Below are positions 45,243-60,281 of a DNA stretch of 64,000 nucleotides, piece by piece. Where the stretch lies: the NCBI RefSeq assembly GCF_000426225.1, contig NZ_AUEY01000015.1, forward strand, positions 1 to 64,000, read 5' to 3'. The translations under genes and the position numbers were made by a program. Origin of the DNA: Desulforegula conservatrix Mb1Pa. GTDB taxonomy: Bacteria > Desulfobacterota > Desulfobacteria > Desulfobacterales > Desulforegulaceae. A model generated the notes under the pieces. That model had not been told where the DNA came from, did not search any database, and saw only the letters and a list, made by a program, of their open reading frames with translations. Position 1 is the stretch's first letter; every line of letters begins with the position of its first letter.

Positions 45243-48200
45243 TTAATCTTTATTTAGCCATTTGTCTATTATCTGGGTAAGTTTATCAATACTGATAGGT
45301 TTGGAAATATAATCATCCATACCCGAATCAATACATTTTTCCTTGTCCCCCTTCACTGCATGAGCTGTCATGGCGATTATCACGACTTCTTTATTCAGTA
45401 CATCCGTGTCTTTTTTTCTTACATATTCAGTGGCAGCGAATCCATCCATTTCAGGCATCTGAATATCCATGAACACAAGATCATAATTATTTGTTTTCAT
45501 AATATCAATGCCTTCCCTGCCATTAGAGGCCACATCAGCCGTATAACCAATTTTTTTAAGCATGAGAAGAGCCACTCGCTGATTGACGGGATTATCCTCT
45601 ACAACAAGAATATTTATTTTTTTCTCTTCAGATTCGGCAACAAAAGGCAATCCTTCGTTCTGGGCAGTAGCATCAGATACAATGTCTTCATAATAAGGAT
45701 AATACATATCAGAAAATAGATCCCGCAAGGCTTTAACTCTTACAGGCTTCGTGACATAATCATCAATAAGATATCCTTTAAGCTTTTCAACCTCTGCTTT
45801 GTAGATTAAAGGCACAAGGCCAATAAGTTTTGTATTGGGGGAATATTTTTTTCTTATAGACAGGCATAAATCTTCAATTTTGATATCAGATACAGAAAAA
45901 TCTATAATTGCGGCATCATATGAAAATCCATCAGCCTGGGATGCTTCAAGGATTCTTGCCGCATCAATGCCTTTAGGCACACTGACGGATTTATATCCGA
46001 AACTTTCTGTCAGAAGTTCAATCGATTCTCTTACACAGTCATTTTCTGAAACTATAAGCATTCTACGTGCAGGCGGTGGTAAAAGAAATCTTGTACGTCT
46101 TGTAAAAGGAGCTTCAAGGTTCTTTTTAAAAACAGTTGTAAACCAGAATACAGTCCCCTCGCCTTCAACTGTGTCAACGCCTATGCTTCCCGACATCATT
46201 TCAACGATGCTCTTCACGATCGTAAGGCCAAGACCGGTTCCACCATATTTTCTGGTGACAGAACCGTCAACCTGTGTAAACGGCTTAAAAATCTGCTCTA
46301 CTTTTGACTGGGGAATACCGATTCCTGTATCTGATATACTGAACTTAATAGTCGCATCATTCAAGGTTTCGGACACTATGGATGCTCTGATTATTACCTG
46401 ACCTGAACTGGTAAATTTAATCGCATTATCTGAAAGATTTATCAATACCTGCCTGAGACGTCCCGCATCTCCCATGAAAAATGAAGGAATCCAGGGTTCC
46501 GCCACAAAAAGAAACTCAAGATTCTTTTCCTGAGCCTTATAGCTCAAGGAATCGCAGACATCTTCCAGAATTTCCCATAGATCAAATTCAAGAATCTCAA
46601 ATTCTATCTTGCCAGCTTCAATTTTGGACAGATCAAGAATATCATTAATCAGGGAAAGCAGATGCTCGCCGCTTGATTTGATAATCTGGATATAGTTACC
46701 CTGCTCAGGATTGAGGGAAGTATCGAGCAGAAGGCCTGTCATCCCGATTATGGCATTCATAGGAGTTCTTATTTCATGACTCATATTTGCAAGGAACTGA
46801 GTCTTTGCTATATTTGCAGCTTGTGCGGCTTCCATTGCTGCCCGTAAAGCTTCCTCTGCTTTTTTTCTTTCGGTTATATCTCTCCAGATTCCTTCATATC
46901 CGGAGTAAATCCCCTTGTTATCATAGATTACATGGGCATTTGCAGAAATGCATATCGGGGTTCCGTCCGCCTTTTTTATGTCAATCTCCCAATCCCTGAG
47001 CCATCCGGTCTTCCTGAGATCAGACATCATTATCAATCTTTTTTCAGGATTAGCCCATATTATTTCGGCCTTTTTCCCTATGAGGCTTTCAATTGAATCA
47101 TATCCCAGGACTACAGCGGCAGAGGGGCTCAGCATTGTGAATATATTGTTTGCATCAATTCTGTAAAAAACGTCCTGAATATTTTCTACAACGCTTCTGT
47201 ACTGTTTCTCACTGACGGCAAGAGCGGTTTCCATATTCTTTCTGTCAGTGATATCGTTAAAAAGAGTAAACGCAGCTGGTCTGTTATCAAACCTGATTGT
47301 TTTGGCTGACAGCAGCGCCCATATTTTTTTACCTGATACAGTCCTTAGCTCAGCCTCGAAATTGTTAACCTGTCTGTCTCTTGCCAGTATTTCATGGAAA
47401 ATGCTTCTTTCATCCATCGATTCCCAGAATTTTACAGGGTCCTGGCCAATGGCGTCCTTTACCTCAACATTAAATATTTCAGAAGCCCTCTTGTTGATAA
47501 AAAGAACTTCGCGCCTGTTTTCAAGGGAGGTTATAATAATCGGGAACTGGGCGTTTTCCAGAAGGAACCTGTAGCGTTCCTCGCTTTCCCTTAAAGCTTT
47601 TTCTGCCTGTTTGCTTTTTGTAATATCCCGAATACATGCTAGTATAAGAGTGCGACCTGAGTCATTAAACTTTCTAAGCGCCACTTCCACATCAAAAATG
47701 TGAGAATCAATGAGTCTTTTTGCCTGCCATTCAAATACCTGTACCTGATCACTAAGAGCATTCTTATAGTATAAAGGGAGTTTTGATAAATCATTGTCAG
47801 GGCCTGAAATATCATACAGAGTCATGTTTTGTGCATCTTGCCATGAAATCCCGAAAAGCTTCATCATTGTGGCATTTACATCCACTATTTTCCCTTCAAA
47901 ATCATGGAGAGCAAGTGCGTCATACGTTGAATTGTAAACACCTTTGAACCGTTCTTCACTTTGCTTTAATTCTGAAGTGGTGAGATAGACCTGTTCTTCT
48001 GCCCTGCCACGAGCATTCTGAAGTGAAAATGTTAATACAGAAAGTACTAATGTTAAAAATCCGCCTGCAAAAAGAACAATCCATTGCAGAAACATCGGAT
48101 TGGATTTATAAAACGCTTCTCCTGGTTCGCAGACGATAGCCCATGTTCTCCCAAAAACAAATATTGGCTCAATCCATTTCAATGAACCATGTCCAAAGAA

Positions 48201-50375
48201 AAATGTAATTGGGATTCCCTCATTAGCCTTACTGTTAACTCCATAAGTGCACATTAGCATAGACCCTTCCTCGGAATTTAGGTCTATGAGCCTGGCTGCA
48301 ATATCTCCTTTTCTTGGATCTCTCTGGGAAAATGATATATCCAAAAGTTGGCGTGCTGATATTGCTATTGCTGAAAATCCCTTGAGATATTTTTTATAGT
48401 TTTCTCCTGCATAAATCGGATCAAAAATAAGCCATCCTCTATCATCATAATTCTTAGTTCCCAAAGGAAGAGGAACAGGGTCGCTTGCAGTAAATAGGGA
48501 CGATGATTTGGCTTCCTCCAGTGCTTTTGCAATAGCTGGATCATTAGCCACATCATAGCCGGTATATTCAAACCATTTTGATGAAGGCTCCGCGAACATT
48601 ATCGGATAGTAATCGTCTTTTTCTTTGGCAGGTATCTGGTTGCCTTTATTATCAAGCTCGAAAATCTCTTTGGATTCAGCAAGACTTTTTTTGAAAACCT
48701 TTTCTTCAAATTTTTTTTTGTCTTCCTTGGCGATTCTGGGTATCCACGCATATGAAATACCAGAGACATGCTCAGGATAAAAAGACTGAACAAATCTGAA
48801 AAAATCTATTCTTGTAATCTCTGAATTTGTTTTAAAAAGTCCGCTCAATGCGGCCATTTCAGATGATATCTTTTTGAGCGACTGCTCGAATGCGGCTATT
48901 TTTGTTTCTGCGAACCTTTCAAAATTCTGACGTCTGGCGTATTTTTCCCTGTAATCTATAAAGAAAAATAAGGATATTGATACTGCACTCAGAAATAGAA
49001 AAACAACTATGGTTTCAACATATTTTATAAAACTCGCTGATTTCTGTTCTCTTCTTTCCCTCCTCATAATTGCTATCGTACCGAAGGAAATTAAAGAGAT
49101 CATCACGAATACTATAAAAATGGGAACCTGACGCCTGCTAAAGGTTTCCAGGTCCCACTTGTCTGCAAGTATATCCATACCAAGTACAGCCATAACTTCG
49201 GACGTCCCCCTGGCTTTTATGGGAACAAAGGCAGAAACAAATGTCCCCCACTGATCAGTATATGGACCTAGTGTAAGTGAACGGCCTTCGCCAAAAACAT
49301 TCAGAACTTCTTTTGGGACATCGTCATATGTTCCGCCTGGCATCTCAAAATCTGCGTCTGTCTCAAGAACATCCTCGACTGTGAATACAACCTTGTCATT
49401 CTTTTTGGCCATCATATAAATATAGCGCCTGTCAGGGTTCAATCTCCCGCTCAGAATAAGGAGATTCCTGAGACGCTGAAAAGTAGGCTTGTACCAGTCA
49501 TTTGCTTCATAATTCAAATCTTCGAGATAATTTGGGTCAACTTTGTAAGATATTGCTTCTGTTCTAACCAAGAGCTGTTTTTTTCTATCCTTGTCCGATA
49601 TTTTACCAATGGAGTCTGTTGCAACCCAACCAATAAGAACTAAAAGAATTAAAAAAACCGGAATAAAATTAAACTGCCTATCTTTAAGAAAATAAAGACC
49701 TTTACCATTAATATTTTTTGTATAAAGATACCGCCACATTTCCCAGGCAATAAATATTGAAAAAACAGTATTTATAAATCCGGTTATTCCCTCAACATTT
49801 TTTAAAAAACCCTGATTGTTTGATGTAAAAAGCTTTAACAAGGGCAACAGGTCTATTGTTGTCAAAATATAACAACACAAAAATATTATGAGAAATTTAA
49901 TCGAACTCCTCTCATCCGGCTTGCAGATATCCAGTTCTTTCCGCAATGCCACAAAAACAAGAACTCCTGCTCCAATAACCATTGAAGAATGTGAACTATA
50001 GTCGAGTAAATGAAAGCCATTAATTGCTGCTATCAACATCAATGGAAGGAAAAGAAGATAGACCCAGATTCCGATCTTTTTATTGCTTTTCAGATTGATA
50101 TTTACCCGGCCGAATTCAAAAAGAAAAATAGTGCAGAGGAGAGAGGAGATTACAAGAAAAAGAGGATAGTCCGAGACCCAGGGGCTACCGCAGGAATACA
50201 TCTTGAACCATCTGTTAAAGGCTCCGGCTACTCCAAATTGGGTCAGCCATTCCCAGGAAATATCGCCATTATTCCTGTTTTTTTGCAGCCCCCAGCTTAT
50301 CATTGTAATTGTAATAAGGGCCACACCGCAGATAAAATTTATATAATCGGAGTGATGATGTAAAAATGCATTCAT
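45243..50375 (-). CDS. Large hybrid sensor histidine kinase (7TM-Cache-CHASE-PAS3-HK-REC2)
   Basis: A 1710-residue inner-membrane kinase. Approximate order: seven hydrophobic helices (residues 10-255), a Cache-like extracytoplasmic segment (260-410), helices near 420 and 460, a CHASE domain (480-700; VSGISYAWIPRI, FTASDPVPLPLG), a helix at 760-785, and three PAS domains (about 810, 930 and 1050). Then come HisKA with phospho-His in NMSHEIRTPMNAI (about 1198) and HATPase (NLSDNAIKFT, KYGGTGLGLTIVKS). Two receiver domains follow: the first is divergent (IIDFSVSDIK) and the second canonical (VVEDNPVNQR, FMDIQMPEMDG). No Hpt domain or adjacent regulator gene is seen. It faces the EPS locus convergently. 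Two stacked extracytoplasmic sensor modules are uncommon. Ligands are unknown. Confidence 0.9.
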   Translation of the reverse strand: MNAFLHHHSDYINFICGVALITITMISWGLQKNRNNGDISWEWLTQFGVAGAFNRWFKMYSCGSPWVSDYPLFLVISSLLCTIFLFEFGRVNINLKSNKKIGIWVYLLFLPLMLIAAINGFHLLDYSSHSSMVIGAGVLVFVALRKELDICKPDERSSIKFLIIFLCCYILTTIDLLPLLKLFTSNNQGFLKNVEGITGFINTVFSIFIAWEMWRYLYTKNINGKGLYFLKDRQFNFIPVFLILLVLIGWVATDSIGKISDKDRKKQLLVRTEAISYKVDPNYLEDLNYEANDWYKPTFQRLRNLLILSGRLNPDRRYIYMMAKKNDKVVFTVEDVLETDADFEMPGGTYDDVPKEVLNVFGEGRSLTLGPYTDQWGTFVSAFVPIKARGTSEVMAVLGMDILADKWDLETFSRRQVPIFIVFVMISLISFGTIAIMRRERREQKSASFIKYVETIVVFLFLSAVSISLFFFIDYREKYARRQNFERFAETKIAAFEQSLKKISSEMAALSGLFKTNSEITRIDFFRFVQSFYPEHVSGISYAWIPRIAKEDKKKFEEKVFKKSLAESKEIFELDNKGNQIPAKEKDDYYPIMFAEPSSKWFEYTGYDVANDPAIAKALEEAKSSSLFTASDPVPLPLGTKNYDDRGWLIFDPIYAGENYKKYLKGFSAIAISARQLLDISFSQRDPRKGDIAARLIDLNSEEGSMLMCTYGVNSKANEGIPITFFFGHGSLKWIEPIFVFGRTWAIVCEPGEAFYKSNPMFLQWIVLFAGGFLTLVLSVLTFSLQNARGRAEEQVYLTTSELKQSEERFKGVYNSTYDALALHDFEGKIVDVNATMMKLFGISWQDAQNMTLYDISGPDNDLSKLPLYYKNALSDQVQVFEWQAKRLIDSHIFDVEVALRKFNDSGRTLILACIRDITKSKQAEKALRESEERYRFLLENAQFPIIITSLENRREVLFINKRASEIFNVEVKDAIGQDPVKFWESMDERSIFHEILARDRQVNNFEAELRTVSGKKIWALLSAKTIRFDNRPAAFTLFNDITDRKNMETALAVSEKQYRSVVENIQDVFYRIDANNIFTMLSPSAAVVLGYDSIESLIGKKAEIIWANPEKRLIMMSDLRKTGWLRDWEIDIKKADGTPICISANAHVIYDNKGIYSGYEGIWRDITERKKAEEALRAAMEAAQAANIAKTQFLANMSHEIRTPMNAIIGMTGLLLDTSLNPEQGNYIQIIKSSGEHLLSLINDILDLSKIEAGKIEFEILEFDLWEILEDVCDSLSYKAQEKNLEFLFVAEPWIPSFFMGDAGRLRQVLINLSDNAIKFTSSGQVIIRASIVSETLNDATIKFSISDTGIGIPQSKVEQIFKPFTQVDGSVTRKYGGTGLGLTIVKSIVEMMSGSIGVDTVEGEGTVFWFTTVFKKNLEAPFTRRTRFLLPPPARRMLIVSENDCVRESIELLTESFGYKSVSVPKGIDAARILEASQADGFSYDAAIIDFSVSDIKIEDLCLSIRKKYSPNTKLIGLVPLIYKAEVEKLKGYLIDDYVTKPVRVKALRDLFSDMYYPYYEDIVSDATAQNEGLPFVAESEEKKINILVVEDNPVNQRVALLMLKKIGYTADVASNGREGIDIMKTNNYDLVFMDIQMPEMDGFAATEYVRKKDTDVLNKEVVIIAMTAHAVKGDKEKCIDSGMDDYISKPISIDKLTQIIDKWLNKD

Positions 50376-53911: not shown

Positions 53912-54475
53912 CTATAATTTCCGGAAATATCTGAAATGCATGTTTGCATATTTTTCAAGATCTTCCCGGATTTTGGGATTCTGAGGATCAAAACCTTCTG
54001 GCTTTCTGGCACTCAAGAAATCCATTAATTTTATTTTAAACGCATCTCTTATAACATCCACATCAGATACCACAAGAACAAAAATTCCATTATTCGGAGA
54101 TTGCCATGACTCTTTGGTTTTAAAAGTACCAGCAGCTGTTTGGGCAATATTTTCGCCAATCCTTGCAAAAGCCTCGTTTTCAAGAGTTCTGCTTTTTTTG
54201 AATAAATCAAACAGACACGCCCTGATTTTTTTGTTCAGATTTATATAAAGATCGGTTTTTGCATTTTCTTCAGCTTCCTTATATGCGCTTTCATAGTCAT
54301 CATCAATCGCTGCCATACCCGCACCGCTTACCCCGAAGGCAAAATCACTCGCAAGAACCCATTCCGGTGCATCTTTATAAATACCCGGAACATTTTGTTT
54401 TGTTTCAGTAGTGGCAGAGCAGCCTGAAATAAAAATCAGCGCGATAAAAAATACAAAAAATAAACCTTTAGTCAT
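53912..54475 (-). CDS. LPP20-family-like lipoprotein
   Basis: A 187-residue protein with a lipoprotein signal (lipobox ISGC, Cys19), so it is probably membrane-anchored in the periplasm. The mature part contains PEWVLASDFAFGVSGAG, an Ala/Glu-rich helix (YESAYKEAEENAKTDLYINL) and VLVVSDVDVIRDAFKIKL. This pattern matches the LPP20/FlgP-like lipoproteins. The function is not known. The gene has only a weak ribosome site and is 87 bases after eno's start on the same strand. Confidence 0.75.
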   Translation of the reverse strand: MTKGLFFVFFIALIFISGCSATTETKQNVPGIYKDAPEWVLASDFAFGVSGAGMAAIDDDYESAYKEAEENAKTDLYINLNKKIRACLFDLFKKSRTLENEAFARIGENIAQTAAGTFKTKESWQSPNNGIFVLVVSDVDVIRDAFKIKLMDFLSARKPEGFDPQNPKIREDLEKYANMHFRYFRKL

Positions 54476-54718: not shown

Positions 54719-56473
54719 ATGGAAGTAAAAAACGAAAACATACCAGATCCAAAAGAACTTGAAAAAGAAATCGCCGATTTTTTAAGCAAAAAATTCGGCG
54801 GGAATATCAAGGTCGTAACACCGCAGTTTTCCGTACAGCCAGAGCATGAAGGCTCCAAGGAGACAAAGGTTAAAGATCTCGGCACAAAAATAAACTTTGA
54901 TATGAAACCAGAAGAACTGATCGCCTATCTTGACCAGTACATTGTCAAACAGGACGAAGCCAAGGCTGTTCTTTCAACCAAAATATGCACCCACTTCAAC
55001 AGAATAAGAAAAGCCGCCGCAAATCCGGACGCAGTTGACGAGCTTAGCGGAAGCATCAAAAACAATATTCTTATGTTAGGCCCGACAGGCTCAGGCAAAA
55101 CCTATATGGTAAAGCTTATTGCGCAAAAACTTGGGGTTCCTTTTGTAAAGGGAGACGCCACCAAATTCAGCGAAACAGGCTATGTGGGTGGTGACGTGGA
55201 GGATCTTGTCCGTGATCTTGTTCGCGAGGCTGATGATGACATCGCCCTTGCCGAGCATGGAATCATATATATTGACGAAATCGACAAGATAGCTTCAAGC
55301 AGAAACCTGATCGGAGCAGACGTATCCCGCACAGGTGTTCAGAGAGCCCTTCTTAAGCCAATGGAGGAAACCGACGTTGAGCTTAAAGTACCCCACGATC
55401 CTGTTTCCATGCTTCAGGAGCTGGACAGATTCCAGAAGACAGGCAAAAAAAACAAGCGCGCAGTAAACACAAAGAATATTCTTTTCATAATGAGCGGAGC
55501 CTTTGGCGGACTTTCTGAAATAATTAAAAAAAGAATATCTGGCAAAAAAATTGGTTTTGGTGCTGACTTAGCGGAAAAAGAGACCAATGATGAAATTCTT
55601 AAAAAAGTAAAAACCGAGGATCTTGTTGAATTCGGATTCGAGACTGAATTTGTGGGAAGACTTCCTATCCGTACAGTTTTTGAAACCCTTTCAAGGGACG
55701 ACATATTCGAGATCCTGAAAAATCCGAATAATCCAATAATACTTGGCAAGAAACTCGATTTTGCGGCCTATGACATTGATATAAAATTCGAGGAAGCCGC
55801 TCTTGATCTTCTGGCTGACGAGGCATACTCAGAAAACACAGGCGCAAGAGGGATTTCAAGCTGCGTTGAAAAATCTCTTCTCAAATTTGAAAGAAAGCTT
55901 CCTTCAACAAATATCAGCTTTCTGCCAGTGACTCTGGAAGCAATAAAAAACCCGGACGAAACGATATCGTCACTTACAAATCCAGAAGACTGTGAAAAAT
56001 GGGAAAGCATATATCAGAAACTTGCGGATTCCGAAAAAGAATATGTTCATAAATATGTGGCTGAAAACTGGAAATCCCTGTCCCTCAAGTATAATCTGAC
56101 TTTGTCCGAGGCGAGGATCAATCTGGTTTCTGATTATTATTGCTCTCATATGACAAGCACAGGCAACGCCATAAAGAGAATAAAAAATTTCTATGACGAC
56201 GCCAGAAAAATCGAACTGTACTTTTTAAACCGCCATGATATCAATATCGTTTTCGAGGATGATGCAATTGATTTCATCATCGAACAATTTATTAAGCACG
56301 GAGCTACAGTTGATGAAGTCTTTAAAAAAATGACTTCTGATTTTGAGCTTGGACTTAAACTGGTCAAAGAAAAAGCAAAACGCAACCGCTTTTTCATTTC
56401 CAGAGAGGCCCTCATTGCTCCTGAGCATTATATAGAAAATCTTATCCGTAACGGGATGAAAGAGATTCATTGA
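54719..56473 (+). CDS. ClpX-like AAA+ unfoldase without zinc domain, with C-terminal extension
   Basis: A 584-residue AAA+ protein. The start at 54719 is chosen because GGAAG lies eight bases upstream; a TTG five codons earlier is possible. The N-terminal Zn-binding domain of ClpX (four Cys) is replaced by about 60 residues without cysteines. The ATPase core is ClpX-like: YLDQYIVKQDEAK, Walker A GPTGSGKT (about residue 122), pore loop GYVG (about 154), Walker B IIYIDEIDKI, the ClpP-docking loop IGFGA (about 277) and EFVGRLPI. After TGARGISSCVEK a further region of about 180 residues has no counterpart in ClpX. It probably uses ClpP with different substrates or adaptors. It is monocistronic or co-transcribed with ahbC, 38 bases downstream. 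Confidence 0.85.
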   Translation: MEVKNENIPDPKELEKEIADFLSKKFGGNIKVVTPQFSVQPEHEGSKETKVKDLGTKINFDMKPEELIAYLDQYIVKQDEAKAVLSTKICTHFNRIRKAAANPDAVDELSGSIKNNILMLGPTGSGKTYMVKLIAQKLGVPFVKGDATKFSETGYVGGDVEDLVRDLVREADDDIALAEHGIIYIDEIDKIASSRNLIGADVSRTGVQRALLKPMEETDVELKVPHDPVSMLQELDRFQKTGKKNKRAVNTKNILFIMSGAFGGLSEIIKKRISGKKIGFGADLAEKETNDEILKKVKTEDLVEFGFETEFVGRLPIRTVFETLSRDDIFEILKNPNNPIILGKKLDFAAYDIDIKFEEAALDLLADEAYSENTGARGISSCVEKSLLKFERKLPSTNISFLPVTLEAIKNPDETISSLTNPEDCEKWESIYQKLADSEKEYVHKYVAENWKSLSLKYNLTLSEARINLVSDYYCSHMTSTGNAIKRIKNFYDDARKIELYFLNRHDINIVFEDDAIDFIIEQFIKHGATVDEVFKKMTSDFELGLKLVKEKAKRNRFFISREALIAPEHYIENLIRNGMKEIH

Positions 56474-56511: not shown

Positions 56512-57699
56512 ATGATTGGCATTTCAAAATTATACTGCGGAACAGTAGAGCCATCCGACGCTCTTCGTTATGGACGCCATTCAGGCAGTCTGCCGTCCCA
56601 TCTTCTTCAGTTCTCTTCTGACAAAAAACCAGTTGTTGTCTGGAACATAACCAGAAAATGTAATCTCAAATGCATTCACTGCTATGCCCATGCTACTGAA
56701 GAATCAGGTTTTGACGAACTTACCACAGAAGAAGGCAAAAGACTGATAGACGATCTTGCTTCCTTCGGCTCTCCTGTAATTCTCTTTTCCGGCGGAGAGC
56801 CGCTTGTAAGAAAAGATCTTCCGGATCTTGCCGAATATGCGGTTTCAAAAGGCATGAGGGCAGTTATTTCTACTAATGGGACACTCATAACAAAAGAAAT
56901 GGCACAAACCCTTAAAAGGATCGGTCTTTCATACGTCGGGATCAGTCTTGATGGCATGGAAGATGTCAATGACAGGTTCAGGGCAGTTAAAGGCGCATAC
57001 AAGGCCGCACTTGAAGGCATCAAGAACTGTCAGGAAGCTGGTATCAAAGTTGGTCTGAGATTTACCATAAACAAGCATAATGTTACCGAGATACCGGCAA
57101 TTTTTGATCTGGTTGAAGAAAAAGAAATACCAAGAATCTGCTTTTATCATCTAGTATATTCAGGCAGAGGCTCACAGATGATAGAAGAGGATTTAAGCCT
57201 TGAAGATACAAGAAAAGCCCTTGATATGATAATTGACAGAACAAAGGATCTCCACGACAAAGGCAAACCCAAGGAAGTTCTTACTGTGGATAACCATGCT
57301 GATGGCCCATATATTTATCAAAGACTTCTGAATGAAGATCCTGAAAGAGCCTCAGAGGTTCTTGAGCTTCTGAAAATGAATGAAGGAAACAGCAGCGGAA
57401 GAGGAATCGGTTGTGTAAGCTGGAATGGCGATGTTTTTGCTGATCAGTTCTGGCGCCACCACAGTTTCGGAAATGTAAGACAAAGGCCTTTTTCAGAAAT
57501 CTGGACAAAACCGGATGATGAGCTTCTCATCAAACTTAAGGACAAGAAGAATCACGTGACAGGCAGATGCGCCACATGCAAATGGCTCGACATCTGCGGC
57601 GGCAATTTCAGGGTAAGAGCCGAAGCCGCTCTCGGAGACGTTTGGGCGCCTGATCCGGCATGTTATCTTACTGATGAGGAAATTTCTCAGTCAATATAA
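56512..57699 (+). CDS. ahbC: 12,18-didecarboxysiroheme deacetylase AhbC
   Basis: A 395-residue radical SAM enzyme of the siroheme-dependent haem pathway. It removes the acetate side chains of didecarboxysiroheme to give Fe-coproporphyrin III. The N-terminal MIGISKLYCGTVEPSDALRY is characteristic of AhbC. The radical SAM site is CNLKCIHC (about residues 50-57) with FSGGEPL. A C-terminal SPASM-like cluster region has CVSWNGDVFADQFW and CATCKWLDICGGNFR. hemB and ahbD follow on the same strand. Confidence 0.92.
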   Translation: MIGISKLYCGTVEPSDALRYGRHSGSLPSHLLQFSSDKKPVVVWNITRKCNLKCIHCYAHATEESGFDELTTEEGKRLIDDLASFGSPVILFSGGEPLVRKDLPDLAEYAVSKGMRAVISTNGTLITKEMAQTLKRIGLSYVGISLDGMEDVNDRFRAVKGAYKAALEGIKNCQEAGIKVGLRFTINKHNVTEIPAIFDLVEEKEIPRICFYHLVYSGRGSQMIEEDLSLEDTRKALDMIIDRTKDLHDKGKPKEVLTVDNHADGPYIYQRLLNEDPERASEVLELLKMNEGNSSGRGIGCVSWNGDVFADQFWRHHSFGNVRQRPFSEIWTKPDDELLIKLKDKKNHVTGRCATCKWLDICGGNFRVRAEAALGDVWAPDPACYLTDEEISQSI

Positions 57700-57947: not shown

Positions 57948-57992
57948 CTGGAAAGTTCTTTCAGATGAAAGAGTTTTCCAGTTTTTTTCTTG
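57948..57992 (+). terminator. Intrinsic terminator after ahbC
   Basis: CTGGAAAGTTCTTTC pairs with GAAAGAGTTTTCCAG over 15 bp (two G-U) and is followed by seven T. Confidence 0.85.
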
Positions 57993-58026: not shown

Positions 58027-58998
58027 ATGCTCTTTCCAGAATACAGGCCACGCAGAATGAGAAGAACCGAAGCATTAAGAAGAATGATAAGGGAAACGGT
58101 TCTTACTCCGAATGATTTGATACTTCCTCTTTTTGCAGTTCATGGCAAGGGAGTTAAAAATCCCATTGATTCAATGCCAGGCCAGTTTCAGCTTTCAATT
58201 GAATATATTGCAGAAATGGCTAAAGAGGCTTACAAGCTCGGAATTCCGGCTGTAATGCTTTTTGGAGTGCCAAAGACAAAAAATGCCCTCGGCACAGAAG
58301 CTTACGCAAAGGACGGAATCGTCCAGACCGCGATCAGGGCAGTAAAAAACAAGGTGCCTGAGATGGTTGTCATCACAGATGTCTGCATGTGCCAATATAC
58401 TGACCACGGGCATTGCGGAATCCTTGAAAAAACCGAAGTCAATAATGACGCAACCATTGAAATCCTTGCAAACATAGCTGTTTCCCACGCAAAATCAGGA
58501 TCAGACATGGTGGCACCGTCTGACATGATGGACGGAAGAGTAGGTGAAATCAGGGAAGCACTCGATGACAACAGTTATTATAATATTCCGATCATGTCAT
58601 ATGCCGTAAAATACTGCTCTGCATTTTACGGCCCTTTCAGACAGGCCGCCCATTCCGCGCCAAAGGCAGGCGACAGAAAATCCTATCAGATGGATCCTGC
58701 AAATATCCTCGAAGCAGTAAGAGAAGCGTCCATGGATGTTGAGGAAGGCGCGGACATCATAATGGTAAAACCAGCCCTTTCATATCTTGATGTAATTTCA
58801 AAAATTAGGGATGAGGTTGATCTGCCTGTTGCAGCTTATAACGTAAGTGGTGAATACGCCATGATCAAGGCAGCAGAAAAACTTGGGTGGGTGGACGGAG
58901 CAAAAATCACCATGGAAATCCTTACATCCATAAAAAGAGCCGGAGCAGACATGATTCTATCCTACTCTGCCATGGAAGCGGCGAAGATGATGGCTTAA
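58027..58998 (+). CDS. hemB: Delta-aminolevulinic acid dehydratase (porphobilinogen synthase)
   Basis: A 323-residue enzyme that condenses two 5-aminolevulinate to porphobilinogen. It has RRMRRTEALRRMIRET, the Cys-type metal site DVCMCQYTDHGHCGIL (zinc form), PSDMMDGRVGEIREALD, YAVKYCSAFYGPFR and Schiff-base-region IIMVKPALSYLDVI. AAGGAG precedes the ATG. It sits between ahbC and ahbD, giving three steps of tetrapyrrole and haem synthesis. Confidence 0.97.
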   Translation: MLFPEYRPRRMRRTEALRRMIRETVLTPNDLILPLFAVHGKGVKNPIDSMPGQFQLSIEYIAEMAKEAYKLGIPAVMLFGVPKTKNALGTEAYAKDGIVQTAIRAVKNKVPEMVVITDVCMCQYTDHGHCGILEKTEVNNDATIEILANIAVSHAKSGSDMVAPSDMMDGRVGEIREALDDNSYYNIPIMSYAVKYCSAFYGPFRQAAHSAPKAGDRKSYQMDPANILEAVREASMDVEEGADIIMVKPALSYLDVISKIRDEVDLPVAAYNVSGEYAMIKAAEKLGWVDGAKITMEILTSIKRAGADMILSYSAMEAAKMMA

Positions 58999-59177: not shown

Positions 59178-60281
59178 ATGAAACACGGACATCAAGCGGG
59201 AGCTGGCCATCACGCACAACATAAAAAAGAAGCGGAACTCAGGCTTGTTGCCTGGGAAATCACTAGAAACTGCAACCTAAACTGCGTACACTGCAGGGCA
59301 GCTGCAACTATGGGACCTTATGAAGGCGAGCTCGACACAAAAGCCTGCCTCACCCTACTCGACCAGATAGCTGAGGTTGGTCAGCCTATAGTGATTCTTA
59401 CCGGCGGAGAGCCTTTATTAAGGCCAGATATTTTTGAAGTTGCATCTTACGGAACCTCAAAAGGTCTGAGAATGGTAATGGCTGTCAACGGTACTCTTGT
59501 GACACCTGAAACAGCTGTTAAAATGGCTGAAAGCGGAATAAAAAGAATCAGCATAAGCATAGACGGCGCAACCAAGGAAGTTCACGATAACTTCAGGGGA
59601 GTTCCCGGAGCTTTTGAAGGTGCCATGAGCGGCATAAAACTCGCTAAAGCGGCGGGCATAGAATTTCAGGTAAATACAACAATAACACAGAGAAATATTG
59701 ATCAGATTCCGCATATCCTGAAACTTGCCGAAGATCTTGGCGCAGCAGCACTTCATATTTTTCTTCTTGTTCCTACTGGCCGAGGCAAATACATCGCAAC
59801 AGAAGGTATAGACGCTGAAACATACGAAAAAACACTGAACTGGTTCTATGATCAGAGGGAAAAGACAAAACTTCAGCTTAAAGCCACCTGCGCACCTCAT
59901 TATTACAGAATCCTGAGACAAAGAGCAAAGGAAGAAGGCAAGACCGTCACCTTTGACACCCACGGCCTGGACGCTGTTACGAGGGGTTGCCTTGGCGGCA
60001 CAGGTTTCTGCTTTGTCTCACATACCGGAGTCGTTCAACCTTGCGGGTTCCTTGATCTGAACAGCGGAAACATAACAGAGGATTCGTTCGTAAATGTATG
60101 GAAAAACTCTGAAGTGTTTAAAAATCTACGTAACTATTCTCTCTATACCGGGAAATGCGGTGCATGCGAATACAAGGGCGTGTGCGGAGGATGCAGGGCA
60201 AGGGCATATGAGGCGACCAACGGGGATTATCTCTCCGAAGAGCCTCTTTGCACTTACTCACCAGCTGGCATGGCTCTATAA
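59178..60281 (+). CDS. ahbD: Haem synthase AhbD (radical SAM)
   Basis: A 367-residue radical SAM enzyme that oxidatively decarboxylates Fe-coproporphyrin III to haem b. A His-rich N-terminus (MKHGHQAGAGHHAQHKK) precedes the radical SAM motif CNLNCVHC (about residues 32-39) and LTGGEPLL. The C-terminal second cluster region contains VVQPCGFLDL and CGACEYKGVCGGCRARAYE, as in AhbD. The GGAGG in front of the start belongs to an inverted family B repeat, so the repeat supplies the ribosome-binding site. Confidence 0.9.
   Translation: MKHGHQAGAGHHAQHKKEAELRLVAWEITRNCNLNCVHCRAAATMGPYEGELDTKACLTLLDQIAEVGQPIVILTGGEPLLRPDIFEVASYGTSKGLRMVMAVNGTLVTPETAVKMAESGIKRISISIDGATKEVHDNFRGVPGAFEGAMSGIKLAKAAGIEFQVNTTITQRNIDQIPHILKLAEDLGAAALHIFLLVPTGRGKYIATEGIDAETYEKTLNWFYDQREKTKLQLKATCAPHYYRILRQRAKEEGKTVTFDTHGLDAVTRGCLGGTGFCFVSHTGVVQPCGFLDLNSGNITEDSFVNVWKNSEVFKNLRNYSLYTGKCGACEYKGVCGGCRARAYEATNGDYLSEEPLCTYSPAGMAL

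Follow-up and report, generated by a model that had tools for sequence, protein, structure and literature searches.

A second ClpX-type unfoldase of Desulfobacterota, a probable ClpP partner, is encoded beside genes for siroheme-dependent heme synthesis

In a 64,000-nucleotide stretch of the Desulforegula conservatrix Mb1Pa genome (hereafter the window), we identified a gene, clpX2, whose product shares with ClpX the AAA+ core, the Walker A and B motifs, the GYVG and IGF loops, the Arg finger, the sensor-2 GAR and the small domain. Unlike ClpX, it carries an N-terminal helix, a second small domain and, where ClpX has RKH, a 35-residue loop; it has no zinc domain, scores below the ClpX model cut-offs, forms a separate clade and is linked to ahbC/hemB or to dnaJ. 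We thus class ClpX2 as an unfoldase of the ClpX type from a sister clade, which departs from ClpX in model score, zinc domain, RKH and clade, and agrees with it in its mechanistic features. Judging from its motifs, we consider it highly likely that ClpX2 is an unfoldase partnering ClpP, and probable that it does so with substrates of its own. The strongest clue to its function, which was absent from the first-pass annotation of this DNA, is its linkage to the heme genes ahbC-hemB-ahbD.

The clpX2 reading frame (Table 1) begins at the ATG at position 54719, with a GGAAG a few bases 5′ of it, and a possible alternative TTG start would extend it to 54704. Using the C-terminal region alone as query, we detected ClpX2 in 138 of the 147 genomes sampled from the window's order (126 of the 134 of good quality), and these orthologues mean that the frame is not a chance reading frame. 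Pfam matches comprise AAA_2 and ClpB_D2-small, and the NCBIfam ClpX models (TIGR00382 / NF003745) cover residues 46-414 with scores below their curated cut-offs (315.7 against 359 and 291.3 against 370.75 bits), which places the protein outside both equivalogs. The nearest solved structures are ClpX chains (VIA against the ClpX hexamer 4i4l_B: Z 31.3, 305 residues, rmsd 2.0). Divergent from clpX2 lies a 187-aa lipoprotein-like ORF (53912-54475, minus strand) without a match in Pfam (0.001) or NCBIfam (1e-5), and a 1710-aa ORF (45243-50375, minus strand) resembles, by eye, a multi-PAS hybrid sensor kinase whose N-terminus carries a long membrane part.

Table 1 Coordinates of clpX2, of its sequence features and of the heme genes downstream in the window.
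Feature	ClpX2 residues	Window position	Strand	Basis
clpX2		54719..56473	+	584 aa (stop included in coordinates)
N-terminal segment/helix at the place of the zinc domain, DPKELEKEIADFLSKKFG	10-27	54746..54799	+	column counts, 124 members
Walker A	121-128	55079..55102	+	G121, G124, G126, K127, T128 in 124/124
Pore-1 loop TGYVG	153-157	55175..55189	+	124/124
Walker B	182-189	55262..55285	+	D186, E187 in 124/124
35-residue loop at the canonical RKH site	216-250	55364..55468	+	conserved
IGF ClpP-docking motif	278-280	55550..55558	+	[IMLV]GF in 124/124
Arg-finger region	G313-R314	55655..55660	+	124/124
First (canonical) AAA+ small domain	~322-411	55682..55951	+	HHalign to canonical ClpX small domain 99.7%
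Linker and helical insert	~412-477	55952..56149	+	alignment, AF2 helices
Second, degenerate AAA+ small domain	478-584	56150..56470	+	HHalign, AF2, VIA
ahbC, 12,18-didecarboxysiroheme deacetylase		56512..57699	+	TIGR04546 770.9 bits, cut-off 650
hemB, porphobilinogen synthase		58027..58998	+	NF006762 501.5 bits, cut-off 297
ahbD, heme b synthase		59178..60281	+	TIGR04545 563.3 bits, cut-off 500

Motifs were counted over 124 distinct ClpX2 members and compared with 66 canonical ClpX rows. In addition to the core motifs of Table 1, the sensor-2 TGAR (residues 374-377, including R377) is present in 123 of the 124 members, with one gap. The GYVG pore and IGF loops that the first-pass annotation had described as kept are indeed there, at residues 154-157 and 278-280, and the latter position reads IGF in 97 members, MGF in 14, LGF in 10 and VGF in three. 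Its G and F have zero entropy, whereas residues 273-277 and 283-291 range over 2.4-3.9 bits; an IGF that is kept, as [IMLV]GF, inside an otherwise variable loop predicts that ClpX2 docks on ClpP. Canonical ClpX works as a hexamer that threads substrates in an ATP-driven manner and docks on ClpP. Given this established knowledge and the kept motifs, hexamer formation, ATP-driven threading and ClpP docking are all strongly predicted for ClpX2.

The first-pass annotation had made its reading depend on a canonical clpX elsewhere in the genome. Such a gene, with the zinc domain, is located at G000:C2:16724-17695 (G000 being the window's genome), so clpX2 is not the only ClpX gene that this organism has. 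Directly before the canonical gene lies the single strong ClpP match of the genome (C2:15961-16500); a second PF00574 match is partial (25.4 bits, positions 29-92 of 182). This separation of clpX2 from clpP would suit a protein that works without ClpP as a pure remodelling chaperone, which might for example load or repair Fe-S or metal centres in AhbC, AhbD or HemB, its IGF being used for another purpose or kept by inertia. A precedent is found in mitochondrial ClpX, which activates ALAS by partial unfolding and non-proteolytically (PMC7077987). We regard a ClpP-free ClpX2 as unlikely, since the G and F of the IGF are invariant in 124 members and conservation of a relic to such depth is improbable. 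Canonical ClpX of zinc-domain length and over the cut-off occurs in all 22 ClpX2 genomes that were checked, and the interface motifs (Arg finger and sensor 2) are kept in ClpX2; both would be compatible with ClpX2 acting mainly in mixed rings with canonical ClpX, or as its regulator, and forming no ring of its own. The deep split between the two proteins and the added small domain speak against mixed rings, which we hold to be very improbable. The first-pass proposal that ClpX2 is another partner of ClpP, with a substrate range of its own, is a well-supported prediction, resting on the presence of canonical ClpX, the [IMLV]GF in 124/124 members and the loss of the zinc domain and RKH amid the conservation of other elements.

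This loss is complete in our sample. The zinc motif is present in 66/66 canonical ClpX and 0/124 ClpX2 members, and the window's protein has no Cys in residues 1-60, in agreement with the first-pass observation that the zinc domain is missing. RKH, likewise found in 66/66 canonical ClpX, occurs in the corresponding ClpX2 loop of 0/124 members, the one RKH string among the 124 rows being positioned upstream of the aligned start. The loop that replaces it is 35-36 residues long in 37/37 aligned members. At the N-terminus the members keep the pattern PxPxELEKEIxDFLxKKFG, for which the AF2 model predicts a helix at residues 11-26 with low confidence. In ClpX, the zinc domain docks known adaptors. 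As ClpX2 has neither zinc domain nor RKH loop, its substrate choice is strongly predicted to differ from that of ClpX.

The first-pass annotation had noted about 180 extra C-terminal residues and called the region new. The length is close to what we found (~173 residues, 411-584, past the canonical small domain), whereas the novelty has to be revised, as the region consists of an insert and a degenerate second small domain. HHalign matched residues 478-584 to the first small domain of ClpX2 itself (96.6%, score 54.6) and to canonical ClpX small domains (89.4%, score 37.2; canonical side of 40/61 rows, those that could be cut by motif search), and none of 200 column-shuffled controls reached either real score, the highest null values being 19.9 and 21.4. 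The C-terminal profile also matched the first small domain in several ClpX2 proteins in the phylum search. In the full-length AF2 model, the succession strand-helix-helix-strand-helix-helix appears at 354-420 and again at 509-583, and the C-terminal region folded alone reached a pLDDT of 95.2. VIA searches with this lone model returned mostly ClpX small domains in the top rows (best row: Z 6.9, below the tool's caution level of 8, rmsd 2.4, 81 residues, ClpX 316-403), while Foldseek gave no significant match (best E 1.6), so that the structural support consists of the VIA rows taken together with the profile result. We reject a wholly new C-terminal fold, since HHalign with its null of 200 shuffles and the AF2 model built from the region alone all point to a small domain. 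The second copy has no sensor-2 GAR motif and thus probably has a structural or recruiting role. The helical insert of ~60 residues that precedes it is long in Desulfobacterota ClpX2 and largely absent in Verrucomicrobia and in L044, the locus of a Latescibacterota-labelled MAG.

A phylogeny of the paralogue, which the first-pass annotation had suggested as a check, separated the two proteins. The tree, built from 75 rows by a quick method with one long HslU sequence as its only outgroup, grouped the ClpX2 rows together (SH-aLRT 94), opposite the canonical rows (100), among which was the canonical ClpX of D. conservatrix. By this sequence tree, ClpX2 is an old clade, sister to all sampled canonical ClpX, and a recent local duplicate of clpX is ruled out. 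The about 41% identity between ClpX2 and the core of its own genome's ClpX might suggest an ordinary ClpX altered by trivial truncation or misannotation, a reading that is refuted by the separate canonical clpX, the conserved family-specific features and the separate clade, and to which we assign next to no probability. The genome also encodes an HslU-like protein (at G000:C37). The AAA+ core of ClpX2 is of the same group as that of HslU, yet its score against the HslU model TIGR00390 (167.3 bits) falls below the cut-off of 362.45, outside the family. HslU has no zinc domain and is not known to carry an IGF, whereas ClpX2 keeps one, and ClpX2 presumably has no HslU-type I-domain.

ClpX2 was found in 73 of 148 genomes of the window's phylum (C-terminal profile) and in 23 of 96 genomes from the phylum of a Spartobacteria-type MAG (Verrucomicrobia type; full profile). 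Among the best 80 matches of a contig scan, ClpX2 occurred in Desulfobacterota, Verrucomicrobia and one Latescibacterota-labelled MAG, the others being canonical ClpX. That MAG (G297, the genome of L044) carries two distinct genes for canonical ClpX, both full-scoring, as well as one for ClpX2, and genome G134 encodes, in addition to canonical ClpX and ClpX2, a third ClpX-like protein (C1:2880212-2881273, minus strand; 374-aa open frame, 251 bits to the ClpX model). Viral contigs held 353 ClpX relatives, the best 80 of which (L244-L323) match mainly the ClpX core, covering residues 44-484 only and lacking the second small domain; no plasmid match to ClpX2 was found at 1e-90. A phage or plasmid origin of clpX2 was rejected on these grounds. 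A role as a defence ATPase was also discarded, as matches were short and confined to AAA: the match to IetA/IteA (PADLOC/NCBIfam) scored 33.8 bits and spanned only part of the AAA domain rather than the full length, and NF042959 gave 27.9 bits against a cut-off of 510.

The surroundings of clpX2 point towards heme. In the window, 38 bp separate its stop from ahbC, and ahbC and ahbD are clear members of the siroheme-dependent heme pathway, over their model cut-offs. A terminator-like hairpin between ahbC and hemB (57948-57981, plus strand; 15 pairs and a T-run) suggests that in this genome co-transcription from clpX2 may extend no further than ahbC. Across the order (147 genomes compared), ahbC lies directly 3′ of clpX2 on the same strand in 130 of the 131 genomes that have both, the ends of the two model matches being 0-386 bp apart; the two genes sometimes overlap or touch, and in the lone exception, G133, a weak match to ahbC lies on a separate contig. 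In the phylum sample both genes occur in 53 of 148 genomes and are adjacent on the same strand in 36 of the 53, across 19 families, the remainder being on separate contigs (15) or far apart (two). Seven further phylum genomes, six of them without a strong ahbC, have hemB 3′ of clpX2 with no ahbC in between, and in Desulfosarcina alkanivorans PL12 (NZ_AP021874.1, locus L039) the gene order is clpX2-ahbC-hemB-ahbD. In four genomes without ahbC (loci L199, L204, L207 and L226), a receiver-like gene of ~120-160 aa lies between clpX2 and hemB; the protein from L207, the sole one tested, scored below the Response_reg cut-off.

Twenty of the 73 phylum genomes with ClpX2 have no strong ahbC match, and a strong ahbC is found without ClpX2 in 22 of 75 genomes of the phylum sample and in 6 of 137 at order level. 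The two genes are associated across the phylum (table 53/20/22/53, Fisher p 1.3e-7, uncorrected for kinship, leaving out ten genomes with an ahbC-model match <638 bits), and remain so with those ten included (53/20/32/43, p 2.6e-4, likewise uncorrected for kinship). A diverged clpX2 hidden 5′ of lone ahbC genes was looked for in 12 upstream regions, several of which end at contig ends, and was not found. The existence of ahbC genomes without clpX2 means that clpX2 is not essential for the siroheme-dependent heme pathway.

A second neighbour recurs within the phylum. Directly 3′ of clpX2, 18 of the 73 genomes have a gene encoding a J-domain and DnaJ_C (one representative was checked with Pfam), and 12 have other or cut-off neighbourhoods, including G282, for which the locus sequence was not retrieved; loci including L039, L046, L192 and L193 were rechecked by tblastn for genes behind antisense ORFs. 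The dnaJ-linked loci, the absence of window-type heme genes beside the Verrucomicrobia copies examined (no ahbC, hemB, ahbD or dnaJ adjoining) and the occurrence of ClpX2 in genomes without ahbC would all fit a general quality-control unfoldase with a DnaJ-type co-chaperone, in which the heme linkage, found in one large branch, reflects shared transcription and not shared substrates. However, the placement of clpX2 before ahbC in 130/131 order-level genomes, or before hemB where ahbC is missing, is tighter than loose co-expression would usually produce, and on the ClpX2 tree the dnaJ state requires just three changes (shuffled mean 15.2) and the heme-linked state five (20.9), counts that omit G171 (a long branch) and L044 and score G150 as "other" though it is dnaJ-linked. 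We therefore rate a general quality-control role as a serious possibility, but a distinctly less than even one. Taken together, the dnaJ-linked branch, ClpX2 without ahbC, ahbC without ClpX2 and the Verrucomicrobia loci indicate that heme is not the whole role of ClpX2.

As for the substrates in the window's phylum, the gene linkage and the ALAS precedent suggest the heme-pathway enzymes as the main ones, a proposal to which we give slightly less than an even chance. A tie between a ClpX-type unfoldase and heme synthesis is also reported in PMC8361296. Mitochondrial ClpX resembles ClpX2 in being a ClpX-type unfoldase with such a tie; the tie of ClpX2 consists of gene linkage only and concerns AhbC, HemB and AhbD instead of ALAS, and the domain make-up is different. 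In the open-licence literature that was searched, we found neither an ATPase partner of the siroheme-dependent heme pathway nor a published description of the ClpX2 protein.

We propose that ClpX2 would form an AAA+ hexamer of the ClpX type, from a separate old clade and with predicted ATPase activity, whose IGF loops probably dock on the cell's ClpP, in competition with or as a complement to canonical ClpX, and whose GYVG loops would thread substrates at the expense of ATP. Selection of these substrates probably involves the second small domain together with two conserved elements, the N-terminal helix and the 35-residue loop. The ClpX2 of Desulfobacterota is probably made together with the siroheme-dependent heme enzymes AhbC, HemB and AhbD, on which it could act in two ways: damaged or surplus enzyme may be degraded with ClpP, or the enzymes may be remodelled non-proteolytically, as mitochondrial ClpX does with ALAS. 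In its boldest form, which we offer tentatively and think rather less likely than its negation, ClpX2 would be an unfoldase that anaerobic bacteria devote to heme synthesis, and a third ClpX/HslU-type machine that pre-dates the sampled canonical radiation, in which the second small domain replaces the substrate choice made by the zinc domain and RKH and which controls or repairs AhbC, HemB and AhbD.

The near-universal second ClpX-type unfoldase of the window's order scores below the NCBI ClpX model cut-offs, and it shows that a protein of the AAA+ ring type has gained a second small domain in nature. If ClpX2 partners ClpP, two ClpX-type gates, one of them without the zinc domain, would sort the substrates of ClpP. 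The linkage to ahbC offers a direct guess at substrates and a bacterial parallel to the link between mitochondrial ClpX and ALAS; should ClpX2 be a dedicated heme unfoldase, the bacterial connection between ClpX and heme would have arisen independently of mitochondria.
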